A DNA stretch of 64,000 nt from Pontederia crassipes (lineage: Eukaryota; Streptophyta; Magnoliopsida; Commelinales; Pontederiaceae), in NCBI GenBank assembly GCA_030549335.1, contig CM060196.1, forward strand, positions 11,981,501-12,045,500, in the 5' to 3' direction. Position numbers and translations under genes: made by a program. How positions within the stretch are numbered: position 1 is the first letter of the stretch; each line of letters begins with the position of its first letter. This document shows, piece by piece, positions 3,912-64,000 of this stretch. The notes below the pieces were generated by a model, which was given only the letters and a program-made list of their open reading frames with translations, was not told the DNA's origin and made no database searches.

Positions 3912-4453
3912 TGTCACGGAGTCGTTTTTCGCTCGACCGATCCGTGCGGCGCCTAGACGTGCTCAACGTCTAGGCAACCTCTTTTGAGCGCTTTGCGAAA
4001 GTTTGCTTATGCCACTTTTTATATGCCACAACTTTTGGGACGCACGGTCCCAAGCGGACGCTTCTTCGATAGAGGCGTTTGTGAATAAACGGGCACCTCG
4101 ACGTAACGCTCGATCGCTTGGGACACTTTGGGACGCTCTTTTGTGGGTTGTCACCCCACGCTTGAGGTACGATGCTAAATTTAGGGAAGCTTGAAATCTT
4201 CGTTGAGTAAATAGGAATGATTACAACGCTTCGGGGGAGCACTAGCGGATCTCCCCTACTATATCACCATTTCGGGTGGTAGGTTTGTAACGTGTGGTGT
4301 GGATGACCATCTCCGGGGGTGCACTTTTTTAGAGTGCAATTTACAAAACTGCCACCACCACACTTAGAAAATAAACTAAGTACAAAAGTGAGTTGAAAAG
4401 AAAAATACATGGTAAGATAACTCGACGTGCTCCGGGGAGAAGCCCTCGGGACA
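3912..4453 (-). repeat. Ty3/gypsy 3' LTR
   Basis: On the minus strand it begins TGTCCC and ends GTGACA, with the short TGTC/GACA terminal inverted repeat. It aligns along its whole length with 9075-9611. It contains a 10-bp-stem hairpin at 3951-3975 and a smaller stem-loop near 4320-4340. Confidence 0.9.
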
Positions 4454-4466
4454 TTCTCCCCCACTC
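4454..4466 (-). other. Polypurine tract of the Ty3/gypsy element
   Basis: GAGTGGGGGAGAA directly abuts the 3' LTR on the element's sense (minus) strand, the standard position of the plus-strand primer for reverse transcription. Confidence 0.8.
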
Positions 4467-4479
4467 AAGTCAGCGACGT

Positions 4480-5870
4480 CCCTGGAGTTGCAGTTTGGTA
4501 TTCTTCAATCTTCTGCTTGAACTGCCACATATCTTTGGCTGTCTCCCAACTTGTGTCGGCGTCCGATCTTCCGCTCCATCGAACAAGATACTCCTTCTTC
4601 CGATTCTTCGTGCGGATGGCGAGTACTTCTTCAACTTGATCAGTGAACTGCTGACGGATGGCCGACGGGGCGCGGTCTGAAACCCCAAGTCCGGGATCTT
4701 CGGTGTCTTCGACGAAAGGCTTGAGCAGGCTGACATGGAAGATGGGGTGCTGCTGCATCTGAGGCGGGAGCTCCAACTTGTAGGCCACCTTGCCTATCTA
4801 TTTTAGGATCTTAAAGGGGCCCTCGTAACGCCTAACGAGGCCCTTGTACAGATTCTTCTCACTTAGCCGAAGATGTCGGACCAGCTTCACTAGGATCAAG
4901 TCTCCGACTTCAAAGTTGACATCCCGTCGGACGGTGTCCGCCCACTTCTTTATGCCCTTCGATGCCTTGTGTAAACATGCTCTCGTCATGTCGTTCTGCT
5001 CATGCCATTTTCTCGTCATGCGGTGAGCGGCGGGGACTTTGCCAACAAAAGAAGTGGCGCCGATCTGGGGCGTCAGAGATTGCTGCCTCGTCACTATCTC
5101 GAAAGGACTTCGACTTGTCGACTCGCTCCGCAGCAAGTTGTAAGAAAATTGTGCGATGTCGAGTAGCTTTGCCCAGTCCTTCTGATTGGTACTCGCATAG
5201 TGTCACAGGTAGATCTCCAAGATACAATTTACCCTCTCAGTTTGGTCATCGGTTTGAGGATGAAGTGATGTCAAGAAATGCAAGTTGGAGCCCATCATCT
5301 TGAACAATTCCTTCTAGAAGTTGCCAACGAATCGCCTATCTCGATCGCTGACGATGCTTTGTAGTAGGCCCCAATACTTCACTACATGCTTCATGAATAA
5401 CTCTGCAGCTTCTGTAGTAGGACAACTTGCGGAGCCAGCGGCGAAAATGACGTACTTGGAGAACCGATCGACGACCACCATGATGGTACCCCGCCCCTTC
5501 AGACTTGGGTAGGTCCGTGATGAAGTCCATGGAAATATCTTTCCATGGTCGCTCTGGAATAGGCAGGGGTTCCAGAAGTACGTCGGACGCTTGATTGAGA
5601 TTCTTGTCTTGCTGACAAACAAGGCATGTCTTTACGAAAGCTTCAACATCATCCTCCATCCTTGGCCAGAAGTAGTTGTCTTCGATAAGTGTCAAAGTGC
5701 GATGGATGCATGGATGTCCCGCCCACTTGGAGTCATGGCACTCTTGCATAATAGTGCACCGCAAGTTATCGAAGAGTGGAACGTAGATGCGACGTTCCTT
5801 GGTGAAGATCAGTCCATCTTCCACCCAAAAGCGGCGTGTCTTGCCCTCCGTCGCTTGCTCAAACAAATTC
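4480..5870 (-). pseudogene. Ty3/gypsy integrase with chromodomain (fossil part)
   Basis: Fragments match the H-H-C-C zinc domain of integrase (CIHRTL ... CLVCQQDK), the catalytic core and the C-terminal HPIFHVSLLKP block. They are followed by a chromodomain (EYLVRWSGRSDADTSWE). Chromodomains steer chromoviral integration toward particular chromatin. The frame is broken. Extents are approximate. Confidence 0.8.
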
Positions 5871-6039
5871 TTCGCCGTGGGATCTGACTTCAATCCCTTC
5901 TTGATCCTCTCGATGAGGTCGGCCTGAGAGAAGCTCATGGCCACCAATTCTGCGCGTCGGCTGAGGGCGTCGGCAATGACATTCGTCTTACCAGACTTGT
6001 ACTCCATGACGTAGTCGAACTTCGCCATAAAATCTTGTC

Positions 6040-7130
6040 ATCTTGCTTACTTCGGCGAGAGCTTCTTCTGTGTCTCGAAGTAATTTGTCGCGGCGTTGTC
6101 TGTCTTGATGTGAAATCATGACCCGAGAAGGTAGTGCCGTCATGTTCTAAGGCAATGAATCATCGCGGTCATCTCCTTCTCCTAGACGGCGTAGCGCCAC
6201 TCTGTGTCGTTGAGTTTGCGACTCTCGAATGCCACGGGATGCCCCTCCTGCATAAGAACTCCTCCAATGGCATAGTCAGAAGCATCTGTCTGTACCTCAT
6301 AGGGCTTGGTGTGGTCTGGCAGGACGAGCACATGTTCCTCCGTCATGGCCTTCTTGAGGGTGTCGAACGCTTCCTGGCATATCGGCGTCCACTCCCACTT
6401 CACATTCTTCCGGAGGAGATTCGTCAAAGGGGTCGTCACGTGTGAATACCCTTTGACGAACCGCCTATAGTAGTTCGTCAGACCAAGGAACGAACGCATA
6501 TTGGGAACCCGTCCAGATGACTCTCACTCCATGATGACCCAAATCTTCGCGCCATCCATCTTCAGCTTTCCACTTCCGACAACATGTCCCAAGAAGTGCA
6601 CTTCCGGTTGAGCGAAGACACACTTCTCCCGCTTGACGTAGAACTCGTTCTGCTGCAACACCTCGAACACTTGTCGAATGTGCTCGATATGCTCTTTCAA
6701 GGTGCGGCTGTAGATCACGATGTCGTCGAAGTAGACAACCACGAACCTGTCAAGGAATGGTTGCAATACCTTATTCATAAGAGTGCAGAAGTTCGTTGGG
6801 GCGTTGGTGAGGCCGAAAGGCATCATGAGGAACTCGTAGGAGCCATATCTTGTGACACACGACGTCTTCTGCACATCGTCTTCTGCGATCCAGACTTGCC
6901 AATAGCCTGAACGAAGATCCAACTTGGTAAACCATCTTGCACCACCAAGTTGGTTGAACAAGTCCGCCACCAAGAGGATGGGGTACTTGTTCTTCATCGT
7001 AAGCTTGTTGAGCGTCGGGTAGTCGATGCACATTCGGAGGGAACCGTCATGCTTCTTCTGGAAGAGAACTAGGGCACCATATGGAGACTTTGAAGGCCGA
7101 ACATATCCTGCATCTAATTGTTCGGTAAGT
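6040..7130 (-). pseudogene. Ty3/gypsy reverse transcriptase and RNase H (fossil part)
   Basis: Contains MPFGLTNAP, VVYFDDIVIYS (the catalytic YFDD box) and [16 protein letters not shown], all diagnostic of Ty3 reverse transcriptase and its connection to RNase H, followed by RNase H motifs ([14 protein letters not shown]). The reading frame is interrupted. Extents are approximate. Confidence 0.85.
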
Positions 7131-9040
7131 TACTTACGGAGTTCTGCGAGTTTCGGAGGGGCGAGCCGATAGGGGACTCCATGTAGGGCTTTCGATTCTG
7201 GGACCAAGTCGATGACATGGTCCACTTCACGCTTCGGCGGCAATCGTTTTGGGAGTTCCGGGGGCATGACGTCCGCAAACTCCTCAAGAGCTTCAAGGAC
7301 TTTGGGAGGTGTTGGAGTGGAGGGCCCTGGATCTTTCAAGATGGCGGTCACCAAGAAGGTGTGATCCTGTTTGCACAATCCCTTCGTCACTTGCATAACG
7401 GAGAGGGTCTTCTGCTTAAGATCTCCGCCTGACCTCACAGGGACGTTGTAAGGTCCCTTGGGGTCGAAGATGACCATCGAGTTGGTGAGCGGGATGACAC
7501 ATGCAGCGATGCATCGCAGGAAAGATATGTCCGCCACCACTTCGTAGTCGTTCACTGGTGACACCGTCACGTCGAAGCTTCCCGACCACTTGTCGATGCG
7601 GACCTTCACTCCAGGAGAAATTCCTGTGGTCGAGATAGAGTTCGAGTTCACCGTTTTGAACGTGGCATTAGTCTTCTGTAGTGGCAGCTTTAACTTCTTG
7701 GCGACCACTTCTGACACGAACAACTCCGATACTCCACTGTCTATGAGGGCATTGAAGACTTGCCTATTCAACTCGATGTCCGCATAAAGCCGAGCAGCCG
7801 TTGAAGGACCCTTCGAGGCGTTGATGGCGCTGAGGACGTGTATCGAACTGAGACGCGCATTCTCCTTCTCCTTCTTGTCGGGGCAATACATTGCGTTGAC
7901 TGTCGCCTTCTGCGGACAATCGCTTATCCAATGTGAACTCTTGCAAATGTAGCAAGGCTTCAGCAGCTTTTCGTCCCTCTTGAACCTTTCATTGTTCGGC
8001 TTCTTGTCTTGGTGTCCTTTGCCTTTGTCTTGATAGTGCGGTTTGCCTCCTTGCGACTTCTCTCCCCCACCATTGTCCTTGTCCGAGGGCTTTGGTGATG
8101 GAGCGCTCGCTTTGGTGTATTCCACGAGCGACTCGGTAGCGGCGACTAGCGAGCGGATGTTGGGACAATCTCGTCGCTCCAACTCCGTCCTAGCATATGA
8201 CTTCAAACCCTTCACGAAGATCGCCAGCAACATGTCTTCGTCCACTTAGAAATTCTGTAGGTGGAGCTCGGTGAACTCTTTCACGTACTTCTTCAACGTG
8301 CCCTTCTGGCAAATGTTGAACAATGCAATCTTGGCCTCCAATTCCGACTTGGCAGGGCAGAAGTATATGGTAAGCTGCCTCTTGAAGTCATCTCATTTCT
8401 CAATGGGATCAACGATGCCACGCTCCACGTCATCGCAATGACACCGCCACCACAGACTCGCCGCATCTTGCAAGTAGAAGGATGCGGTCTTCACCATCCT
8501 GGCTTCAGACGACATGTCCAAGGCCTTCATATACCTTCGAACGTTCCACAAGAAGTCATTGATCTCTTTTGCCGATCGCTCGCCTTTGTAGGGCCTCGAC
8601 TTTGGCACATCAATCCTTGCCTCATGTAGGGCGGGCGTCTCGAGACGCCGCCCATCTCCATAGCGTCGTTTGAGTTCTTCCCGCATGGTTTTGAACTCTT
8701 GCTCAATCTCGAACCGCATGTTTGAGAGATCATTGTCCAAGGTCTCCCGCATGTCCATGATCGTCGCCTCCATGAACTCGAGCCGTGTATACAACGATGC
8801 CATCTCTTCCCGCACCGTTGTGAGAACCACTGTCTTTTCCAACTCTCGCTCGTGCATTGCGAGTTGGTCTTGCATCTCGCCCACGTCCAATTGGAATTGG
8901 CTGAGACGTTGCTCGAAGGCGGACATGGTGTCCTTCGAGCGGGCGCGCCCTCTCTCCCGGCGGCCCTTCTCCAGTGCGACGAGTTCATGCGTCATTTTCG
9001 AGTTCGACGTAATTTCACCTTGATCGTCGAACGCCAACTT
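7130..9040 (-). pseudogene. Ty3/gypsy Gag and protease (fossil part)
   Basis: The N-terminal part carries a heptad-rich stretch (about 8650-8950) and the Gag core (KSRPYKGERSAKEINDFLWN). A CCHC-type knuckle CYICKSSHWISDC follows near 7920-7960, then the aspartic protease signature ALIDSGVSELF near 7740. Gag would package the RNA and the protease would process the polyprotein. Broken; extents are approximate. Confidence 0.8.
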
Positions 9041-9057
9041 GAGCGGTGCCAGAAACG

Positions 9058-9071
9058 CTGCTCTGATACTA
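9058..9071 (-). other. Primer binding site of the Ty3/gypsy element
   Basis: TAGTATCAGAGCAG on the minus strand, three bases inside the 5' LTR. It closely matches the TGGTATCAGAGC complement of initiator tRNA-Met used by most plant LTR elements. Confidence 0.8.
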
Positions 9072-9074
9072 AAT

Positions 9075-9611
9075 TGTCACGGGTCGTTTTTCGCTCGACC
9101 GACTCGTGCGGCGCCTAAACGTGCCCAACGTTTAGGCAAGCTCTTTTGAGCGCTTTGCGGAAGTTTGCTTATGCCACTTTTTGTATGCCACAATTTTTGG
9201 GACGCACGGTCCCGAGCGGACGCTTCTTCAGTGGAGGCGTTTGTGAACAAACGGGCACCTCGGCGTAACGCTCGATCGCTTGGGACGCTTTGGGACGCTT
9301 TTTTGTGGGTTGCCACCCACGCTTGAGGCACGATGTTAAATTTAGGGAAGCTTGAAATCTTTGTTGAGTAAATAGAAATGATTACAACGCTTCGGATGAG
9401 CACTAGCGGGTCTCCCCTACTATATCACCGTTTCGGGTGGTAGGTTTGCAACGTGTGGTGTGAAAGATCATCTCCGGGGGTGCACTTTTTTGAAGTGCAA
9501 ATTACAAAACTGCCACCACCACACTTAAAAAATAAACTAAGTACAAAAATAAGTTGAAAAAAATACATGATGAGATAATTCGACGTGTCCCCGAGAGAAG
9601 CCTCTGGGACA
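9075..9611 (-). repeat. Ty3/gypsy 5' LTR
   Basis: Full-length partner of 3912-4453, about 91% identical by eye. It carries the same hairpin at 9113-9137 close to the primer binding site, but with both stem arms changed in step. Confidence 0.9.
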
Positions 9612-10768
9612 TTCACATGGCGATTTTATCAAATTAATTAAACTCGATAAAATCGTGAATTATGAGTATACTTGTTGCTTCTAAGAGTTGGCCCAAAAAA
9701 TAGGGGTTCACCTACCCACGTATCACTAATTCATACTATGCCTTTTTTATCACCGAAAAAAATACTCTTTCAATCGAGATATACACTCTTCAAGTTTGCA
9801 CCACATATCACTAAATTTTTTATTTTATTATATTTTTTATTATACTAAGTTAAAGTTCATCCCAATGATAAAAGCAAAATAATTTATAAAAAAGTAGTAA
9901 AAATAATTTATTTACTCATTATCAACCATAATTATTGACATAATATTTCAAGACTTAAACCATATCAATCAAACAATGAAAATTAACATTTAAAAAATCA
10001 TTAGCACAGCAAATCAAAACTCAAATAAAGTTTCATGTTCAAAATGTAGAATTCATTTTTTATATACTCAAACTCTCACTAGTCGGACATATAATTTAAA
10101 ACAAAATAGTTGTAATATGATAACTGAAAAAGATATACACCCGGAATCCCGATAAAGAAATATTTATAAAAAGTTTTTTTTTCATCTTACTATCACGTCG
10201 AATATTTTCTGTAGCAAAATGCTTTTTTACAAACTTAATCCTTGAATCTCATCTAAATATTCTTACTATCAGTGCATAAAATAAATTGTTATTATAATAT
10301 AACAGTGTCTTGTTATATTTATTGTTACTATATTATAAATAGCAATTTAATAAATGACCTTAAGAATCTATCACTCCAAATGGTGATAGATGAATAAGAA
10401 ATATAACGCTTTTATTTGCTGGTTTACGTGGACTCGATCATGTTTTAGGGCTATCCAACTTAATTAATAATTGAATTAGTGACAGTGGACACTTTATCGA
10501 AAGAGAATATTAGAAATAAACTAGCAAAAATAGATACAAGACTCCTGTCACTCCCATTGATGTCTTCTCTTCTTCTTGGGATAGTTTTTTAACATAAAAT
10601 TATCCGAAAACTATGTGGACCTAAAAAAATTAACATGTTATCGTAACGTGGACCTTTGATCGGGAAAAAAAATATCATATTTGCTCGTGCTATTAATTCC
10701 GCAAAAGACTATATGGTTGTGCTTGGAAATATTTTCGAAAATTAGTACATGATAGGTAAGTACTCTAT
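9612..10768. other. AT-rich intergenic DNA, no gene seen
   Basis: Low-complexity AT-rich sequence between two transposon blocks. No coding frame, RNA gene or element end could be supported. Confidence 0.5.
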
Positions 10769-13944: not shown

Positions 13945-14249
13945 TGTTGAAATATATGGTCCGTCGGTGAACATCCACATAGCAGAGCTCACCTTATGAA
14001 GATGTTGTTGCCTTCCATGTCTTTCAAGTTTATGGAGTTTGTAGCGTTTTCTTGTAGCAGGTCTTAATGTTTTAATCTCTTTTGTATCAGTCTGCAACTA
14101 ATATAAATAAGTAGTATAGTGTGTGAGTTTGTGGCGGATGTCGTCTTGTAATCTTTTTTCATTTTGATTAGGATAGATATTTTCTTTCTTTCCTCTGCAA
14201 CTCATCGCACCCTCTTTCTTCCTTCCGTCTTTTTCTCCGACGAGCTTTC

Positions 14250-14689
14250 TGATGGAAAAAGTCGAGAACAAGGAGAGAAGATCACAGAGAGATTGCAGAA
14301 AAATAGAGGAGACACACGAATTTACCCAAGTTCATCCTTGAGATGAGGGCTACGTCCTGCAAAGAGGTTCCACTATATCGTTTAGGTTTACAGTCGTCAC
14401 ACAAATTACATCAGAAATTAGGCTATTAATAGCCTCTCCAAACCGAGTTTAAAACCCAAACAAACAGAGAAAAAACCTAATCCGAACCACACGGGCCGGC
14501 TAAACAAAAGCCCAAAACCCGATAAACAAAAGCGGGACCGCCGTCGGGGGGCGGGACCCCCCGAACCCTCCCCCTTCTTTCGTACGCCAGCAGTACTGCT
14601 AATTGGGTAATACTCAGGTTCCCCTAAGCTCACGTGGACGAATCCAGTGTGAGAAACAGGGGGTCCTGAAGTATTCACGAACTCTAACA
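14250..14689 (-). repeat. Ty1/copia 3' LTR
   Basis: On the minus strand it starts TGTTAGAG and ends CCATCA. It aligns along its whole length with 18773-19193 apart from a small indel, and is flanked outside by CTTTC. Confidence 0.9.
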
Positions 14690-14702
14690 TTCTCTCACTT
14701 GG
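14690..14702 (-). other. Polypurine tract of the Ty1/copia element
   Basis: CCAAGTGAGAGAA immediately upstream of the 3' LTR on the sense strand. Confidence 0.7.
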
Positions 14703-14759
14703 TGGATACTTCACACCAATGAGAGCGTTGCCAGTAACATTCTTCTTCAATCCGATAAC

Positions 14760-16330
14760 AGTAGAGCACCACTCGAACTTTGCACCTGTAACTGCTTTAG
14801 TCAGAAAATCAGAACTATTATATGTTGTATGAACCTTTTCAAGCTGAACCTCTTTCTTTTCCACCTTTTCCCGAATGAAATGGTATTGAATGTCAATATG
14901 CTTTGTGCGTGAGTGAAATGCAGGATTCTTAGCTAACTGAATAGTACCTTGATTATCACATCTCACATCTATGACACCTTGCTCAAATCCGAGCTCCAAG
15001 CACAATCGCCGTAGCCATATGGCCTCCTTTGCAGCATGAGTAAGAGCCATATATTCAGCTTCTGTAGAAGAAAGTGCTACCACGCTTTGTCTCTTGCTCA
15101 TCCAACTTAGTGCAGCCTCAAATAATGTAAAAACATATCCGCTAGTGTCTCCACCCCAATCAGCATCTACATTGCCTACAAATATCAAGCCTCTTTCCTT
15201 TTCCCGCACCTTCAAAGCACAAAGCAAAATCTGAAGTTCCACGAAGGTACCTGAAAACTCTCTTGATAGCATTCCAATGTTCCCTGCCTGAGTTAGACAT
15301 ATACCGACTCAAGACTCCCACGACTTGGGCTATATCTGGACGTGTGCATATCATGGCATACATCAAGCTGCATACTGCACTTGCATATGGCACACGGTCC
15401 ATCTCTTCGACTTCTTCATCTATCTTCGGGCATTGTTCTGCAGAAAGTTTGATTCCTAGAGATATAGGAGTATCCACTGACCTGCAGTCCGACATGTTAA
15501 ATTTTTTCAACACTTCTTTTACGTACTTCTCTTGTCCTAGCCACAACTTTCACTTCTGACGATCCCTTCTAATATGCATACACAAAATAAAATTCGTTGA
15601 TCCCAAGTCTTTCATCTCAAACTTCTTGGCCAACAAATCCTTCACTGAATTCACCATCTTCATACTGTTTCCAATCAGCAACATGTCATCCACAACAGTG
15701 TAAGAATGACAAATTGATCTCCAACTCTCTTCACATAAACATAATAATCTGAACGTACAAATTTGAGTTCGAGCATGTACGTATCAAACTTCCGGTACCA
15801 CATCCTTGGCGACTGCTTCAATCCATATAAAGACTTTTTCAATTTGCATACCAGCTTCTTTTTACCTTGAACTTCAAAGCCTTCCAGTTGCCTCATATAT
15901 ATCTCTTCCTCCAAGTCTCCATGAAGGAATGTCGTCTTCAGATCCATCTGCTCTACCTCAAGATTATATACTGCTGTCAGAGATAGAACAAATATGATTG
16001 AAGTCATTTTCGCCACGAGAGAAAAAATCTCATCATAGTCGACTCTCTCAATCTGAGAGTACCCTTTAGCTATCAGTCTCGCCTTGTACTTCTCTACAGA
16101 CCCATCCGGTTTCATCTTTCGCTTGAACACCCATTTACAACTAATTGCATTTCTATCCTTAGGCAATTTACACAAGCTCCACGTTTCATTCTCATCCAGT
16201 GACTGTATCTCATCTGCCATAGCAAGCTCCCATTGATTTGCATCATACATACACCTTACATCTTTTACAGAACTAGGTTCTTCTCCGATGATGCTCAAAG
16301 CATGAAACGAACTCAGAGCACTAAGAGAAT
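14760..16330 (-). pseudogene. Ty1/copia reverse transcriptase and RNase H (fossil part)
   Basis: Motifs include WVFKRKMKPDGSVEKYKARL, KKSLYGLKQSPRMWY and, in RNase H, SKRQSVVALSSTEAEYMAL and the KHIDIQYHFIRE block, all characteristic of Copia pol. The frame is interrupted. Extents are approximate. Confidence 0.85.
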
Positions 16331-16559
16331 ATCTAAGAGGTGCTCTTCTTTCTCGTGTCGATCTCCAAAGAACTGGTATGATAGTACTAATATCTGGGTC
16401 TTTATTTGAATCTGCATCTTCAACTTCATTAACCGAGTCCTCTTGATCCGGTTCTGGAGCAGACTCAACTGAAGTATCTTGTGCAACCACCTCTGAAGTT
16501 TCAGAATCAGAATCTTCTTCAAGCACTACCACTTTCTTAGGTTCATCACTTTTTTGAAC

Positions 16560-17460
16560 TTCAACTTGGGAACGTGATTAACGAAAAATAATATCCCTAC
16601 TGTAGACAATAGTCCTTGACTTTGGATTCCACAGTTTATAACCCTTGACCCCTTCCTTGTATCCGACAAATATGTTCTTTTTAGACTTACTGTCAAGCTT
16701 ACCCCGTTTTTCCTTGGGTATATGAACATATGCGTCACATCTGAACACCCAAACATGAGACAGATTCGGCTTCTTTCCAAACATTGCCTCATAAGACGTC
16801 TGATCCTTCACTGATGAGGTCGGTGAGCGATTCTTCAAATAGTTTGCTGTGACAACAACTTCTGCCCAGAACTCTTGCTCTAATCCAGCCCAACTCAGCA
16901 TACATCTCGCCTTCTCTATGAGTGACCGATTTAACATTTCAGCTACTCCATTCTGCTCAGGTGTATATGGAGTTATCTTCTGCCTTGCAATACCATTGTC
17001 CACGCAAAACTGTTCAAACTTCTCTGAACAAAATTCGCCTCCGTTATCTGTACGAAGGACCTTGATCTTGCTGTTCAATTGATTTTCCACCAAAACTTTA
17101 AATTCTCGAAACATATCGAATACATCTGACTTATTTTTGATAAAATAAATCCAACTGTATCTCGAAAAATCATCTATGAAAGAGACATAGTACCTGGACC
17201 CTCCAGTAGAGGGAGTCGGAGTTGGTCCAAAAATATCACTATGGATCAGTTCGAGAATCTTGGTTGCTCTTGAACCTGTGTGTTAAAAACTGACTCGGTT
17301 CTGTTTTCCATGAAGGCAATGTTCACAGAACCCAAAGCCCACAGAACAATCCGGAACTCCTTCTATCATCTGACTTGATGCTATGGTAGAAAGTCTTTTC
17401 TCACTGATATGACCTAATCTCTGATGCCACAGCATAAATGTGTTGTTTTCATCTTCTTTG
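16560..17460 (-). pseudogene. Ty1/copia integrase (fossil part)
   Basis: Contains the pre-integrase zinc region (MLWHQRLGHISEKRL ... FCEHCLHGKQ) and the catalytic core with VLRTDNGGEFCSE and TPEQNGVAEMLNR, holding the conserved Asp and Glu of the DDE triad. The frame is interrupted. Extents are approximate. Confidence 0.85.
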
Positions 17461-17779
17461 GCCTCTTCAGAAATAAATCCGCAGCCCACAGATATAATCT
17501 CTCCGAGCAACTTGTACAATGTGCCATAGCGAACTCCTCGCGCAATCACAATAGACCCTCTGATCATCTTGCACGAATCCTTGTCGCAACTGAATATAAC
17601 ACCCGAATAAGCCATTGTACCAACAGATAACAAATTTCTGCTCATAAGTGGTATATGCATCATATCTGGTAGAGTCTTCACCGTGTCATCATTCATCCTC
17701 GGCTTCACCCTGCCACGTCCAATAATCTGAACCGTAGTGTCATCTCCGAGCATGACATCCCCACCATTATACTCCTCAT

Positions 17780-18725
17780 ATTCATAAAACCAGTGTTTAT
17801 GAAGTATCATATGGTATGAAGCACCAGTATCGATGAGCCATACATCTTTATCTGACTGTGCCATACATGCAGAAGTCACATACATATCTTCTGCCACAGC
17901 CTCCTTTTTGTCCGAGGTTGACTCAGCTTCTTTCTTGTGAACCGGCTTATTTTTGCAATCACGTTTCAAATGGCCCCACTCTTGACATCTCCAGCATTGC
18001 ACCTTCTTATCTCTACTCTTCGAACGCCCACGAGATTTGGATCTGGACCCTCTCTGATTTTGATTCCTTTCTGGTTGCCTTCCTCTGGCCGCCAGTGCCT
18101 TTTTACTAGAACTTGCCGATCCCTTTCTTCGTGTTTCCTCTGATAACAAGGTAGCACATACATTTTCATACGAAAGTTCTTTATCCCCGCCACCAATCAC
18201 GACAATCAGATTATCTCATGAATCCGACAGCGAATAGAGCAATGCTATTGTCTTATCATCATCTTGAAAATTTACACCGATCGATACAAGTTGACTGATA
18301 ATCGTATTAAAGTTATAAAGATGAGTAGAGAATGAGTCACCCTCATGCATCCAAAGATTGTACAGTTTCTTCCTCAGAAATAACTTGTTAACCAGCGACT
18401 TACTTTGATATAGGGATTCCAACTTCCTCCATAGATCTCTGGTTGTAGGTTCGTTCATCACATTCGTAAGAATTGAATCCGCGAGACAAAGCCGAATCAA
18501 ACCCTTCGCCTTTCTATCGATCCGATCTCATTCTTCGATCGCCTTTGGATCTGCCTGACTAGAGGATGCCCCATCCGCGACCTTCGCCGCTTCCACGCCT
18601 GGCCTCTCCTTCTCGATTGTCATCCAAAGATCTCGATCACAGAGGAGATCCTCCATCTTCATCTTCCAGAGATCAAATCGTGTTCCATCAAATTTTTCTA
18701 TCTCAATTCGCGATCCTCCTGACAT
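17780..18725 (-). pseudogene. Ty1/copia Gag and protease (fossil part)
   Basis: Starts with MSGGSRIEIEKFDGTRFDLW, the usual Copia Gag opening, followed by UBN2-type Gag, a basic tract, the zinc knuckle CWRCQEWGHLKRDC and the protease signature WLIDTGASYHM. Broken; extents are approximate. Confidence 0.85.
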
Positions 18726-18756
18726 CTCGAATAAATCTTAATTCCTCGAACAACTT

Positions 18757-18770
18757 GTGCTCTGATACTA
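18757..18770 (-). other. Primer binding site of the Ty1/copia element
   Basis: TAGTATCAGAGCAC on the minus strand, two bases inside the 5' LTR; close to the initiator tRNA-Met complement. Confidence 0.8.
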
Positions 18771-18772
18771 AT

Positions 18773-19193
18773 TGATGGGAAAAGACGAGAACAAGGAGAG
18801 AATATCGCAGAGAGATTGTAGAAAAATAGAGGAGACACACGAATTTACCCAGTTTCACCCTTGAGATGAGAGCTACGTCCTACAAAGAAGTTCCATTATA
18901 TCGTTAGGTTTACAGCCGCCACACAGATTATATAAGAAATTATGCTATTAATAACCTCTCCAAACCGGGTTTAAAATCCAAACAAACAGAGAAAAAATAT
19001 AATTCGAACCACACGGGCCGGTTAAACAAAAGTCCAAAACTCGTCGTCGGGGGGCGGGACCCCCCCGAACCCCCTCCTTTCGTTCGTACGCCAGCATCAC
19101 TGCTAATTGGGTAATACTCAGATTCCTCTAAGCTCACGTGGGCGAACCCGGTGTGAGAAATAAGTGGTCCTGAAGTATTCACCAACTCTAACA
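18773..19193 (-). repeat. Ty1/copia 5' LTR
   Basis: Partner of 14250-14689; ends TGTTAGAG...CCATCA on the minus strand, flanked outside by CTTTC. Confidence 0.9.
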
Positions 19194-19227
19194 CTTTCAG
19201 CGAGACATTGGAGCTTGGTTTTTGACA

Positions 19228-19240
19228 TGGTATCAGAGCC
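19228..19240 (+). other. Primer binding site of the outer Copia-type element
   Basis: TGGTATCAGAGCC, a full match to the tRNA-Met complement, directly after the TTTTTGACA end of the left LTR. It sets the plus-strand orientation of the outer element. Confidence 0.85.
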
Positions 19241-20757
19241 GAATTATCGGCGATCCACCTGAGCTCCACATCGTCGCCTGTCGCCAGATTTGGAGTCTTG
19301 TCGGCGTCCATGGCTCTTGAAAGTTCGAGAGACGTAGATCTGGCCGGATCTGCACAAGTCGCGAGGTCCTCATCTTTTCTTTCTTTTTTTTCTGGATCTT
19401 CTTCTTCACTTTCATCTATTGTTCTTCTTCACTTCGATCTATCCGGATCTTCTTCTTTCTTCGTTTTTTGTCATCGTTTCTTGTTGTTGATCTATGATTG
19501 TCAATCTCCTCTTTGCTATTTTACTTCAACATTGATCTTCTCCAATTGTTCTCTCCGTTTTCCCTCATTTCTCCAATATTATTCCTATGGTTCTTCGTTT
19601 GCAATCCTGATCATCTCTGTTTTCTCTAATTCCATGGTGCTATGTTGTTGCTGATCAAATTCTTCTTGGATTCGACATCATCGTTTGCAATTCTCGACGT
19701 TGTCGTCGGAGGGGTAGGAGCCTTCTCTCCTTGTTGCTGTTATCGACATTTCTCCGGCGTTGTCGTCGGACGCTTTCGGTGGCGATCGCCGAATCGGAGC
19801 TTAACCTCCGTATTGCTATCGTTTGTCGACGATCTATTTTTGTTTTGTCTCTTATCACAATGTGTTTGCGTATGTATTAGAATGTCTTGAAGTTTATGTC
19901 CTCTGATTCATCAAGGTCGGGGAGGCACTTATTGCCTCTGATCATCCTCTAATATGTTGGTTCTTCTGTCTTAGTGCTTTCATATGTTTTCTTAGCTCTT
20001 CGTATGTTAGTTCTCATGTTTCATCTTGTCTGCTGGTGCATGTTGGCCTCTCCAGAAACCATGAGTAGCAGGTGTTCGATGATATGTATCTTGGCTTGTA
20101 GAGTGATCCTTCTCCAGCTGGGGTTCTTCAGTTTCGATACTATGGGTTCTTCATCGACATTTTCTAGCTGATGGATGAGTTGTTGGCTTCAACGATGAGT
20201 TGTAGCAAGTTGCCATTCCAGTTTCTTCATGGCATTTAAGGAGTTATGCTCTCGTTGCTGAAGTGTTACTTGCTGCCAATCCAATCCTGCATTTTTTACA
20301 TTTGAAGTTCTCATAATTTCCGCTGCTATCCACAGCTTGATTTCAAGTGATCTATAGATCTAATCTTCAGCTTATCGACAGCATTTCCAGCTGTCCTTCG
20401 CGCCTCTCTTTGCCAGTTGCAGAGTTCTTTTTTTACAGGTGCCCGCGAGTAGATAATTCGTGCTACCAACTTGAGTTTGATGTCTTCATCTCATATATAC
20501 GTAGAACATCATTGGCAGCCGCATCTATCTTCTGTACGTGCCAACTTTGGTTGCCTTCCTTTGCTTTGGAGGCCTTTGGATGATGGTATCCTGCTTGTGC
20601 ATTTGTTCACAGCACATCAAACAAACACAGCAAGAAGAATTCCTATGTTCGTCCAGTTCTTCTCACATGTGTTCGATGAATTGTCGTAGCCGATGTATTT
20701 TACCGACGATGATGATAACTTCAAATTGTCGCCGTTCAATTTCTTCTCGGCGTCGAC
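19241..20757 (+). other. Non-coding interior of the outer Copia-type element
   Basis: T-rich sequence with many TTCTTC and TCTTCG runs and no gag or pol homology. Short open stretches here look like chance. It ends in the polypurine tract at 20758-20768. Confidence 0.6.
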
Positions 20758-21487: not shown

Positions 21488-21761
21488 GTTGTTGTCTTCC
21501 ATGTCTTCCAAGTTTATGGAGTTTGTAACATTTCCTTATAGCAGGTCTTAATGTTTTAATCTCTTTTGTATCAGTCTGCAACTAATATAAATAAGTAGTA
21601 TAGTGTGTGAGTTGGTGGCAGATGTCGTCTTGTAATTTTTTTTCATTTTGATTAGAATAGATATTTTCTTTCTTTCCTCTGCAACTCATCGCACCCTCTT
21701 TCTTCCTTCCGTCTTTTCTCCGGCGAGCTTTCGACGAAATATCGGAGCTTGGTTTTTGACA

Positions 21762-61734: not shown

Positions 61735-62035
61735 TTTAAGGGTTAGTTTCATAAATTATTCCTAAACTATCACAATTTTTTACGTCTTTTCACGTCTAAC
61801 TCTCAATTAAGAACTTTTTTACCCCTAAAATACCATGATTTCTTCAATTTGATCATTCCGTCAAATTTTTTATTAACTTCGATGTGAAAAGTCGAAGCTA
61901 TCCTCTAATAACACATCAAATAAAAAAATAAAAAGAATAAATCACCGTCGACAACGGAAAAGGGGTGGGGGAGGGGGCACTGCCGTCGGCGGGGGCCTCA
62001 CAAGCGACGACCAGCGACGTGGGGGAGGGGGGCTG
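61735..62035. mobile_element. Truncated MITE-like segment cut by an LTR element
   Basis: Begins AAGGGTTAGTTTCATAAATTATTCC and passes into a GC-rich stretch (61943-62035) of the kind found in the centres of the Mutator-like elements here. The matching right arm is absent; the sequence stops where TGTAACGCCCCC begins. Tentative. Confidence 0.35.
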
Positions 62036-62959
62036 TAACGCCCCCAAAATGTATTAAAATTTTTGCCGAACTCTGGACGGCATTACATCGATCTTAACTT
62101 TGACCTAATTTCATAAACCTTTGCAGCGGAAACATAATATATTAACTTAAAACTTAATCATCAATAACAGCGGAAGACTTTATGGATAATTAAAATAAAA
62201 ATGCAAGATAACATAATCTGGCCCATAGGCCTAGTAGGCTCTAACGTATACCCAACAATAAGTTCTTACAACATAATGAGTTCAAGTAAATTGCATGACT
62301 CCATAAGGCCCATAAGTCATACATAACAGACTCTTACAAGAGTTCAACATATGACATAACATAAGAAAGATAACTTGGGCCATAGTCCGACTCGTCCATG
62401 TGCAATGTTTTCGTCAAGAGACCTTCATCGCCGAACCTAAACCTCGTCCATACCTGCACGGATCCATGGGGTGCAGGGGATTTCTCCCGTTAGAGTGTGT
62501 TGAGGCCCATGCATGCTATGACCTTATAACATAATCTCTATATGTTATGACATATGCATATCATCATCATGGAACATAAATCATATGCATACTATGAGCT
62601 ACTTATGCATATTACATGGCATGTGATCATATCATCATGACAATATAAGATAACAAGTAACATCATAATCTTTATGTCGCACATATCATAACTTATCATC
62701 ATGCTAATGCATACTATAATCTTATCTTACTTTACTTTAGCATCTTTCATCATATCATGATATAATGTGACAAGTGGACATTTACATGGCATTCTCATAG
62801 GTGCATACTTCTTTAATATCTTTACTTTATATCCCAAGTCATTCATCATTCATCTTTACTTAAATACTTTCTTATTTTGTTTAATTGGGAAGACCATGTT
62901 GAAGCTCAAGGGAAAAATGACTAGCTAGGCCAATACATTGGGGTCGCGGGAAGCCAATA

Positions 62960-63121
62960 GAGACGCCACACTAGGGGTGGAACTCGCCTCCTGGGACCGC
63001 GGATGCTTAATTTGAGACGCCACACTAGGGGTGGAACTCGCCTCAACTTATGGAAACGCCACACTAGGGGTGGAACTAGTTTCCCCGAGAAATGCCGCCA
63101 CTAGGGGGCGGAACTCATTTC
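62960..63121. repeat. Four hairpin units with co-varying stems
   Basis: Units at 62960-62990, 63014-63044, 63052-63084 and 63089-63121 share the core CCACACTAGGGGTGGAAC. Outer arms are GAGACG/CGCCTC in units 1 and 2 (one mismatch), GGAAAC/GTTTCC in unit 3 and GAAATG/CATTTC in unit 4. The inner arm changes from CCAC/GTGG to CCGCC/GGCGG in unit 4. Loop ACTAGG is constant. Confidence 0.85.
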
Positions 63122-63289
63122 CCCTTTCCTTAATTGCAACAAGTCACCTTCACGCCAATCCGTCTTTTACTTATTTTCATCAATACATACAATCAGTCAC
63201 ACATGTTGCTTGTTTTAATTCTATTTAAGGTCATACATACTTCAAATCATACTATGTGTGATCATTCAAATATCGCAAATCAACCTTCA

Positions 63290-63870
63290 GAACGGACGAC
63301 CGTTTTGGGTAATGGTCGACCATTGGTAGAGTATCGGTCGACCGGTCGGGTTATCAGTCGACCGTTATGGTCCATTCGGACGACCGAAATCAGATTTCGA
63401 TTCGTCCGCTAATCACAGAATGTGACACTCTTCTATATCAAACGACCGTTATTAAATCGGTCGACCGCTCATGGGTCCTTCGGACGACCGAAAATGGATT
63501 TCAGTTCGACCGCTAATCACAGAATGTGACCTTCTCTTAAATCGGACGATCGCTCGATAATCGGTCGACCGATACTGGTCCTTTCGGACGTCCGAAAATG
63601 AATTTCGGATCGTCCGTTAATCACAGAATGCGTTGAACATTTCGACGACACGTATCGGACGACCGTTATTACATCGGTCGACTATTATATTGCTATCGGG
63701 CGACCGAGACAGGGTGTCTGGTCGATCGCTATTCACAGAATGTTCCGACCATTCTAAAACGGGCGACCATTATAGAACCGATTGACCATTGGGCAGAGTT
63801 TTATACTATGATGATCTCCAGAACGGTCGACCGATACATTATCGGTCGCCCGTTATGGACCGACAGATAC
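63290..63870. repeat. Tandem array of about 104-bp units packed with palindromes
   Basis: The marker AATCACAGAATG starts at 63411, 63515 and 63619, and a variant ATTCACAGAATG at 63731, giving periods of 104, 104 and 112 bp. Each unit has sites built on GGTCGACC or GGACG(A/T)CC, including perfect palindromes AATGGTCGACCATT (63311-63324), ATCGGTCGACCGAT (63560-63573) and TTTCGGACGTCCGAAA (63582-63597). Confidence 0.85.
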
Positions 63871-64000
63871 ACGATTTTTATACTATTTCACTCTAAATCT
63901 TTCATACAATAAGATATTGAACACATACATGATTCCAAACATCATATAAGGCATTTTTTAGCATTCTTGGCAATTTAATCATGAATATAATAAGGTTTTC

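Follow-up and report, generated by a model that had tools for sequence, protein, structure and literature searches.

A tandem hairpin array in the LTR of a chromovirus-like retrotransposon family of Pontederia crassipes, with a possible role as a leader RNA element

Four adjacent hairpin units were confirmed at positions 62960-63121 of the window (the whole 64,000-nucleotide stretch of Pontederia crassipes DNA analysed here), within an LTR of a Ty3/gypsy chromovirus-like family. The stems of these hairpins are constrained among copies, both sides of individual pairs have changed between subfamilies, and some related LTRs carry a different hairpin array at the same place. The best reading of this pattern appears to be a slot, downstream of a presumed promoter, in which the letters of the hairpins turn over while pairing largely stays. 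We consider it quite possible, though short of probable, that the array supplies cis-acting leader RNA hairpins for dimerisation or packaging of the genomic RNA; the structure is fairly well supported, and the function we infer.

The array and its carrier element

On the minus strand, each unit opens with a 6-nt arm and AGTT, continues with one side of the inner stem (4 or 5 nt) and, after the loop CCCTAGT, closes with the other side of the inner stem and the second arm. H4 (63089-63121, minus strand), the first unit in the sense direction, has a 6-bp arm, the AGTT bulge, a 5-bp inner stem CCGCC/GGCGG and the 7-nt loop CCCTAGT, and is followed by H3 (63052-63084, minus strand; arms GGAAAC/GTTTCC), H2 (63014-63044) and H1 (62960-62990), the last two, also on the minus strand, being identical in sequence, so that the array holds three distinct arm sets. 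A preliminary description had placed four such units here, in a probable retroelement terminus, with arms that differ by paired changes and an altered inner stem in the fourth unit; these points were borne out, with two corrections to the arms. Its pair GAGACG/CGCCTC carries A.C at arm pair 4 on the plus strand; read on the minus strand this pair becomes G.U, the only one in the H2 arms, GAGGCG/CGTCTC. Its H3 arms hold in most copies but have lost the innermost pair in the window copy (AGTTTC, against CGTTTC in most copies).

The 15-base core CCACACTAGGGGTGG occurs three times in the window, against 0.42 expected with up to 3 mismatches and a count of three reached in 0 of 100 shuffles, and 155 times (90 + 65) in the 1.13 Gb genome, where the core read backwards, as a control, gave none. 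Relative to shuffles, the stability of the whole array was unremarkable whichever strand was folded (z -0.28 and -0.51), and the single units gave z of -1.34, -1.34, -1.36 and -2.71 on the sense strand and -0.06, -0.11, -1.07 and -2.62 on the plus strand. The best predicted folds of the window array, and of the arrays in the related LTRs L084-L086, pair neighbouring units with each other. Rfam 15 gave no match at curated score anywhere in the window, and its six weak matches within 61900-64000 were all at E 3 or worse, none of them on the array; likewise, the core extended to CCACACTAGGGGTGGAACT had no matches in viral contigs, and the array had none in plasmids.

The surrounding LTR (62035-64000, minus strand) ends in the sense direction in GGGGGCGTTACA at 62035, about 925 nt beyond the sense end of the array, and continues past the window edge; homology of the window copy to the LTR of locus L016 ends about 0.7 kb before the far end. 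Loci L001-L065 comprise the surroundings of 100 among the 155 core occurrences together with the window's own copy. Many core occurrences lie in same-strand pairs, and self-comparison delimited LTR pairs in 13 loci, spaced 4.8-7.3 kb apart and 84.6-99.7% identical over the main aligned part, with an LTR of about 3.36 kb and about 2.1 kb between LTRs in L016. In 9 of these 13 loci one LTR is adjoined by TCTGATACCA, the reverse complement of the TGGTATCAGA primer site, which we take to be that of the initiator-Met tRNA; a search for the exact 8-mer TGATACCA was negative in L016, L033, L036 and L047. Paired LTRs, one with an adjoining primer site, identify an LTR retrotransposon, and its sense strand is the window minus strand because the primer-site complement adjoins the LTR. 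In L040 the LTRs are 99.7% alike and the primer-site complement lies beside both, which suggests a recent or tandem arrangement.

Coding capacity was surveyed in the same 13 loci as stop-free frames of at least 70 aa, with Pfam run on only three frames. In loci with a spacing of 7.0-7.3 kb (L025, L033, L034 and L047) there are frames for gag, for RT and RNase H, both on our own reading, and for an integrase-like product. Those with a spacing of 4.8-5.4 kb (L016, L036, L060, L064, L055 and L030) have a gag of another kind, with no pol frame visible; this second gag is accompanied by RNase H/integrase pieces in L040 and L045, and the first gag by RT pieces in L012. The L016 gag frame is of Ty3 type, matching Retrotrans_gag (E 3e-18) and Ty3_capsid (4e-13); two short L025 pieces gave matches to SH3_Tf2-1 above the cut-off (E 2e-26) and, short of the curated cut-off, to rve (2e-6) and Chromo (1e-4). 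Array units are present in 13 of the 13 loci, in pol-bearing copies and those in which only gag was seen alike. With its gag and SH3 matches, its integrase and chromodomain matches below the cut-off and its long LTRs, the carrier resembles the plant Tekay/Del-type chromoviruses, to which it may belong; we know of no hairpin array described for these elements, and the portion of the literature consulted under the Tekay name held no such description.

About 100 nt upstream of H4 lies a TATA-like TTAAATA box (63222-63228, minus strand), whose commonest base at each position reaches 97% or more in an alignment of 77 copies, counting those that have a base at that position; we read it as a probable TATA box with a putative promoter role, and the presumed transcription start is a guess from its position. 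The same LTR contains a second repeat block (63290-63870, minus strand) built of tandem repeats of about 104 bp in which palindromes abound (CGGTCGACCG, CGGACGA..TCGTCCG); on both strands, several 100-nt segments of it have more stable folds than their shuffles (z to about -3). Longer inverted repeats are also found in this block, followed by TAATCACAGAATGTGAC. Palindromes are common as protein sites, and the adjoining palindrome-rich block would fit a reading of the array itself as palindromes acting in DNA, either as binding sites or as cruciforms within the promoter region of the LTR, which we consider quite improbable in view of the pairing evidence given below.

Decay and stem constraint among copies and units

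Change among copies was counted in the 77 copies whose alignment to the window LTR exceeds 700 bp, the window's own copy (L065) included. Counts were placed on a tree derived from the flanking sequence, with a few other kinds of change left out. Differences within the family are mostly single transitions, C>T or G>A, equal on both strands, probably reflecting methylation-type decay. At the tree tips, 219 single changes led away from Watson-Crick pairing (98 to a wobble in sense, 99 to a wobble in antisense and 22 to a mismatch), compared with 20 double changes that kept it; a further 3 doubles lost it, and 34 changes took a wobble to Watson-Crick. Branches leading to two copies had 11 sense-wobble, 12 antisense-wobble and 6 mismatch singles, 3 keeping doubles and 10 wobbles back, and deeper branches had 11, 8 and 1 singles respectively, 1 keeping and 1 losing double, and 12 wobbles back. 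The preliminary description had taken covariation as a mark of selection on pairing, and had allowed that unpaired substitutions as frequent as paired ones would speak against it; for recent change, those that do not keep the pair far outnumber the paired doubles, so that this part of the description could not be sustained. Within-family covariation was accordingly rejected as proof of pairing, doubles being near independence at most pairs. Such decay cannot show pairing selection, because C>T on one arm with G>A on the other restores the pair automatically, and recent copies are uninformative on sense RNA, because the decay at the tips has no strand preference.

Taken over all columns, the array was no more conserved than its flanks in the 77 copies, and a contrast between stems and flanks was visible only once C>T and G>A were set aside. 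At A/T sites, 0.3% of arm cells (n = 1480) and 0.7% of inner-stem cells (n = 437) were changed, compared with 4.1-6.9% in three flank stretches, 4.4% in the bulge, 10.4% in the loops, a figure that includes one common A/T switch (CTAG to CTTG), and 13% in the spacers, whose alignment is less sure than that of the flanks. C>T and G>A changes at C/G sites affected 9.7% of arm, 10.0% of inner-stem, 5.8% of loop, 2.4% of bulge, 8.2% of spacer and 7.8-9.9% of flank cells. The low change at A/T sites relative to flanks and spacers demonstrates constraint on the stems. It also counts against an array of no function, in which template switching or snap-back copying would make and re-match hairpins, and C>T decay would give the differences between units. 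This explanation accounts for the near independence of doubles within the family, and we nonetheless consider it unlikely.

Units across the genome were collected from 344 loop matches, reduced to 298 by limits on loop, inner-stem and arm mismatches, with H1 and H2 merged; because these limits were applied, the set is skewed to well-kept units. Unit classes differ on both sides of a pair at arm pair 3 (G-C/A-U), arm pair 5 (C-G/U-A) and inner pair 3 (A-U/G-C), and the H4 inner stem has 5 bp in 52 units and 4 bp (CCAC/GTGG) in 16. Among 70 sampled units, 92.7% of cells were paired, compared with 87.3% in shuffles (0 of 500 as high) and 37-60% in slid controls, and pair numbers and pair-type numbers were not above those of shuffles, 381 and 409 of 500 of which reached them. 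A search with a 4-bp unit pattern in which both sides of inner pair 3 were changed gave one match, as did its control.

The paired arm changes among H1/H2, H3 and H4 are all transitions, as an origin by decay would predict. Random transitions give full pairing in 10 of 220 outcomes for the three changes from H1/H2 to H3 and in 6 of 66 for the two from H3 to H4, and if only C/G sites decay the fully paired outcomes are 4 of 84 and 3 of 15. Pairing between units is thus suggestive rather than proof, because these chance counts permit a fully paired outcome. At the variable arm pair of H1/H2, 117 of 152 units keep A.C in DNA, and the same pair in sense is A-U or G-U in 148 of the 152 and in 70 of the 70 sampled units. 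A mismatch that is kept in DNA and pairs only as G.U in sense RNA argues against DNA palindromes, and a cruciform looks less likely than an RNA structure; the common G.U weakly favours action of the sense RNA, as judged from sequence.

Related LTRs and replacement of the array

A search with the primer site and LTR end gave 68 matches, and short stretches at the array position were examined in 20 related LTRs, the first of which were picked for variety in the two bases preceding the LTR. Ten have this array, four another hairpin array, two small hairpins, and four no hairpins in the stretch examined (L069, L078, L079 and L087). Three to four units are visible in those with this array type (L070, L071, L073, L074, L075, L080, L081, L084, L085 and L086), and their loops, of 8-9 nt compared with 7 nt in the family, include CTTAAG (L071, L073, L074, L075 and L081), CTCGAG (one L075 unit), CTCAAG, and GCTTGGG (L080 and L084-L086). 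The H2 arms are GAGATG/CATCTC, fully paired, in L073 and L074, as opposed to GAGACG/CGCCTC in the window family, and AAGATG/CATCTC in L075; the H4 inner stem of L071 is CCACC/GGTGG, as opposed to CCGCC/GGCGG in most copies. Both sides of a pair have therefore changed in a sister subfamily.

In L072, L077, L082 and L088, recognisably similar flanks adjoin a different, type-2 array of 18-nt hairpins (e.g. CCTCATC-TTTA-GATGAGG, CCTCTTC-TTTA-GAAGAGG and CCTCATT-CGTC-AATGAGG) with TCTTAAC-like spacers. When 29 18-mers were chosen by spacer alone, not all of which are real units, own-arm pairing averaged 4.55 of 7, compared with 3.0 with the arms of other picks, a total reached in 0 of 20000 permutations, and at least 6 pairs were formed in 11 of 29 own and 113 of 812 other combinations. 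Another pick of 29 type-2 18-mers from three loci gave 4.07 and 2.42, respectively, again with 0 of 20000 permutations reaching the total. In ten distinct well-paired type-2 units, both partners have changed at three pairs (A-T/T-A in a single unit, T-A/C-G in two and C-G/T-A in four), four cells are mismatched, and a palindromic tetraloop occurs in 0 of the 10; L072, L077 and L088 also contain poorly paired units. By eye, L076 and L083 have small hairpins (GAAAG..CTTTC versus GGAAG..CTTCC, and CACAT..ATGTG).

Type-2 units resemble re-made inverted repeats, as expected of hairpins generated by copying errors without function; retention of a hairpin array in the slot in 14 of the 20 sampled LTRs speaks against that origin. 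A protein site in DNA is argued against because the hairpin sequence turns over, with pairing kept. Selection on pairing, as claimed in the preliminary description, thus draws no support from paired changes among the family copies and is instead supported by the A/T constraint of the stems, the paired changes in the sister subfamily and the other array in the slot.

Proposed role and comparison with known systems

Under the proposed leader role, the array would act from the window minus strand as a cis-acting RNA element of the LTR. Its place shortly after the presumed promoter would put it close to the genomic RNA 5' end, and, should R include the array, it would recur in the transcript of the 3' LTR. 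In each RNA unit an arm helix would be followed by an AGUU bulge that hardly varies and then by an inner helix closed by the loop; self-complementary loop centres (CUAG, and CUUAAG or CUCGAG in relatives) may kiss between two RNAs, and Gag may recognise the repeated bulged hairpins. Kissing-loop dimerisation, linked to packaging, is the first choice because the loop centres are self-complementary: a stem with a CTAG loop is present in 220 of the 298 units, in a presumed leader position judged from the TATA-like box. That palindromes are strictly required is argued against by the CAAG centres of 46 of the 298 units, which are not self-complementary, and by the type-2 loops, which lack a palindrome.

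Retroviral dimerisation and packaging stem-loops (HIV-1 SL1; MuLV SL-A to SL-D; RD-114) are short leader stem-loops with palindromic loops, several in a row, which the array would resemble in its presumed leader position; it differs from them in lying inside a plant Ty3/gypsy LTR, about 925 nt before its 3' end, and in consisting of tandem near-copies. Retroviral dimerisation sites work by kissing loops, linked to packaging, and MuLV SL-C and SL-D have the loop GACG that type-2 units of L072, L077 and L082 carry in sense (PMC5874298). A sense RNA structure with another job, such as nuclear export, leader translation or poly(A)/termination control in R, is possible if somewhat unlikely: the same anatomy fits, several copies carry the array in each of their two LTRs, and the export elements RTE and MTE of mouse LTR elements are RNA elements that act in cis (PMC12786077), but nothing singles this job out and it does not require palindromic loops. 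The MTE is described there as one complex fold with a pseudoknot and a kissing loop, unlike a tandem array (PMC12786077). In long R regions of LTRs residual conservation is tied to stem-loops, and the part of that source consulted describes no tandem array with swapped arms (PMC3601003).

Extending the dimerisation or packaging reading, a fixed LTR slot may always be occupied by tandem hairpins, the sequence of one subfamily giving way entirely to that of another with self-pairing kept, and loops and arms may form a fast-changing self-recognition code by which each subfamily, and its gag-only parasites, would dimerise or package their own RNA; we hold this idea to be rather doubtful. Titles and abstract openings in the open-licence literature described no such array, and part of the core letters had no match in the literature. 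LTR retrotransposons make up much of plant genomes, and to our knowledge their cis-acting RNA signals are little mapped in plants. A swapped-hairpin slot common to pol-bearing and gag-only copies is a candidate for how RNA is chosen in copying and for how parasitic copies keep up.

Other retroelement sequences were observed elsewhere in the window. Gypsy-like frames lie on the minus strand at 3912-9614, between two repeats of about 545 bp that are 90.6% alike, and frames that we read as Copia-like, also on the minus strand, lie at 14004-19428 and 21488-21732 among repeated segments, apparently broken or nested.
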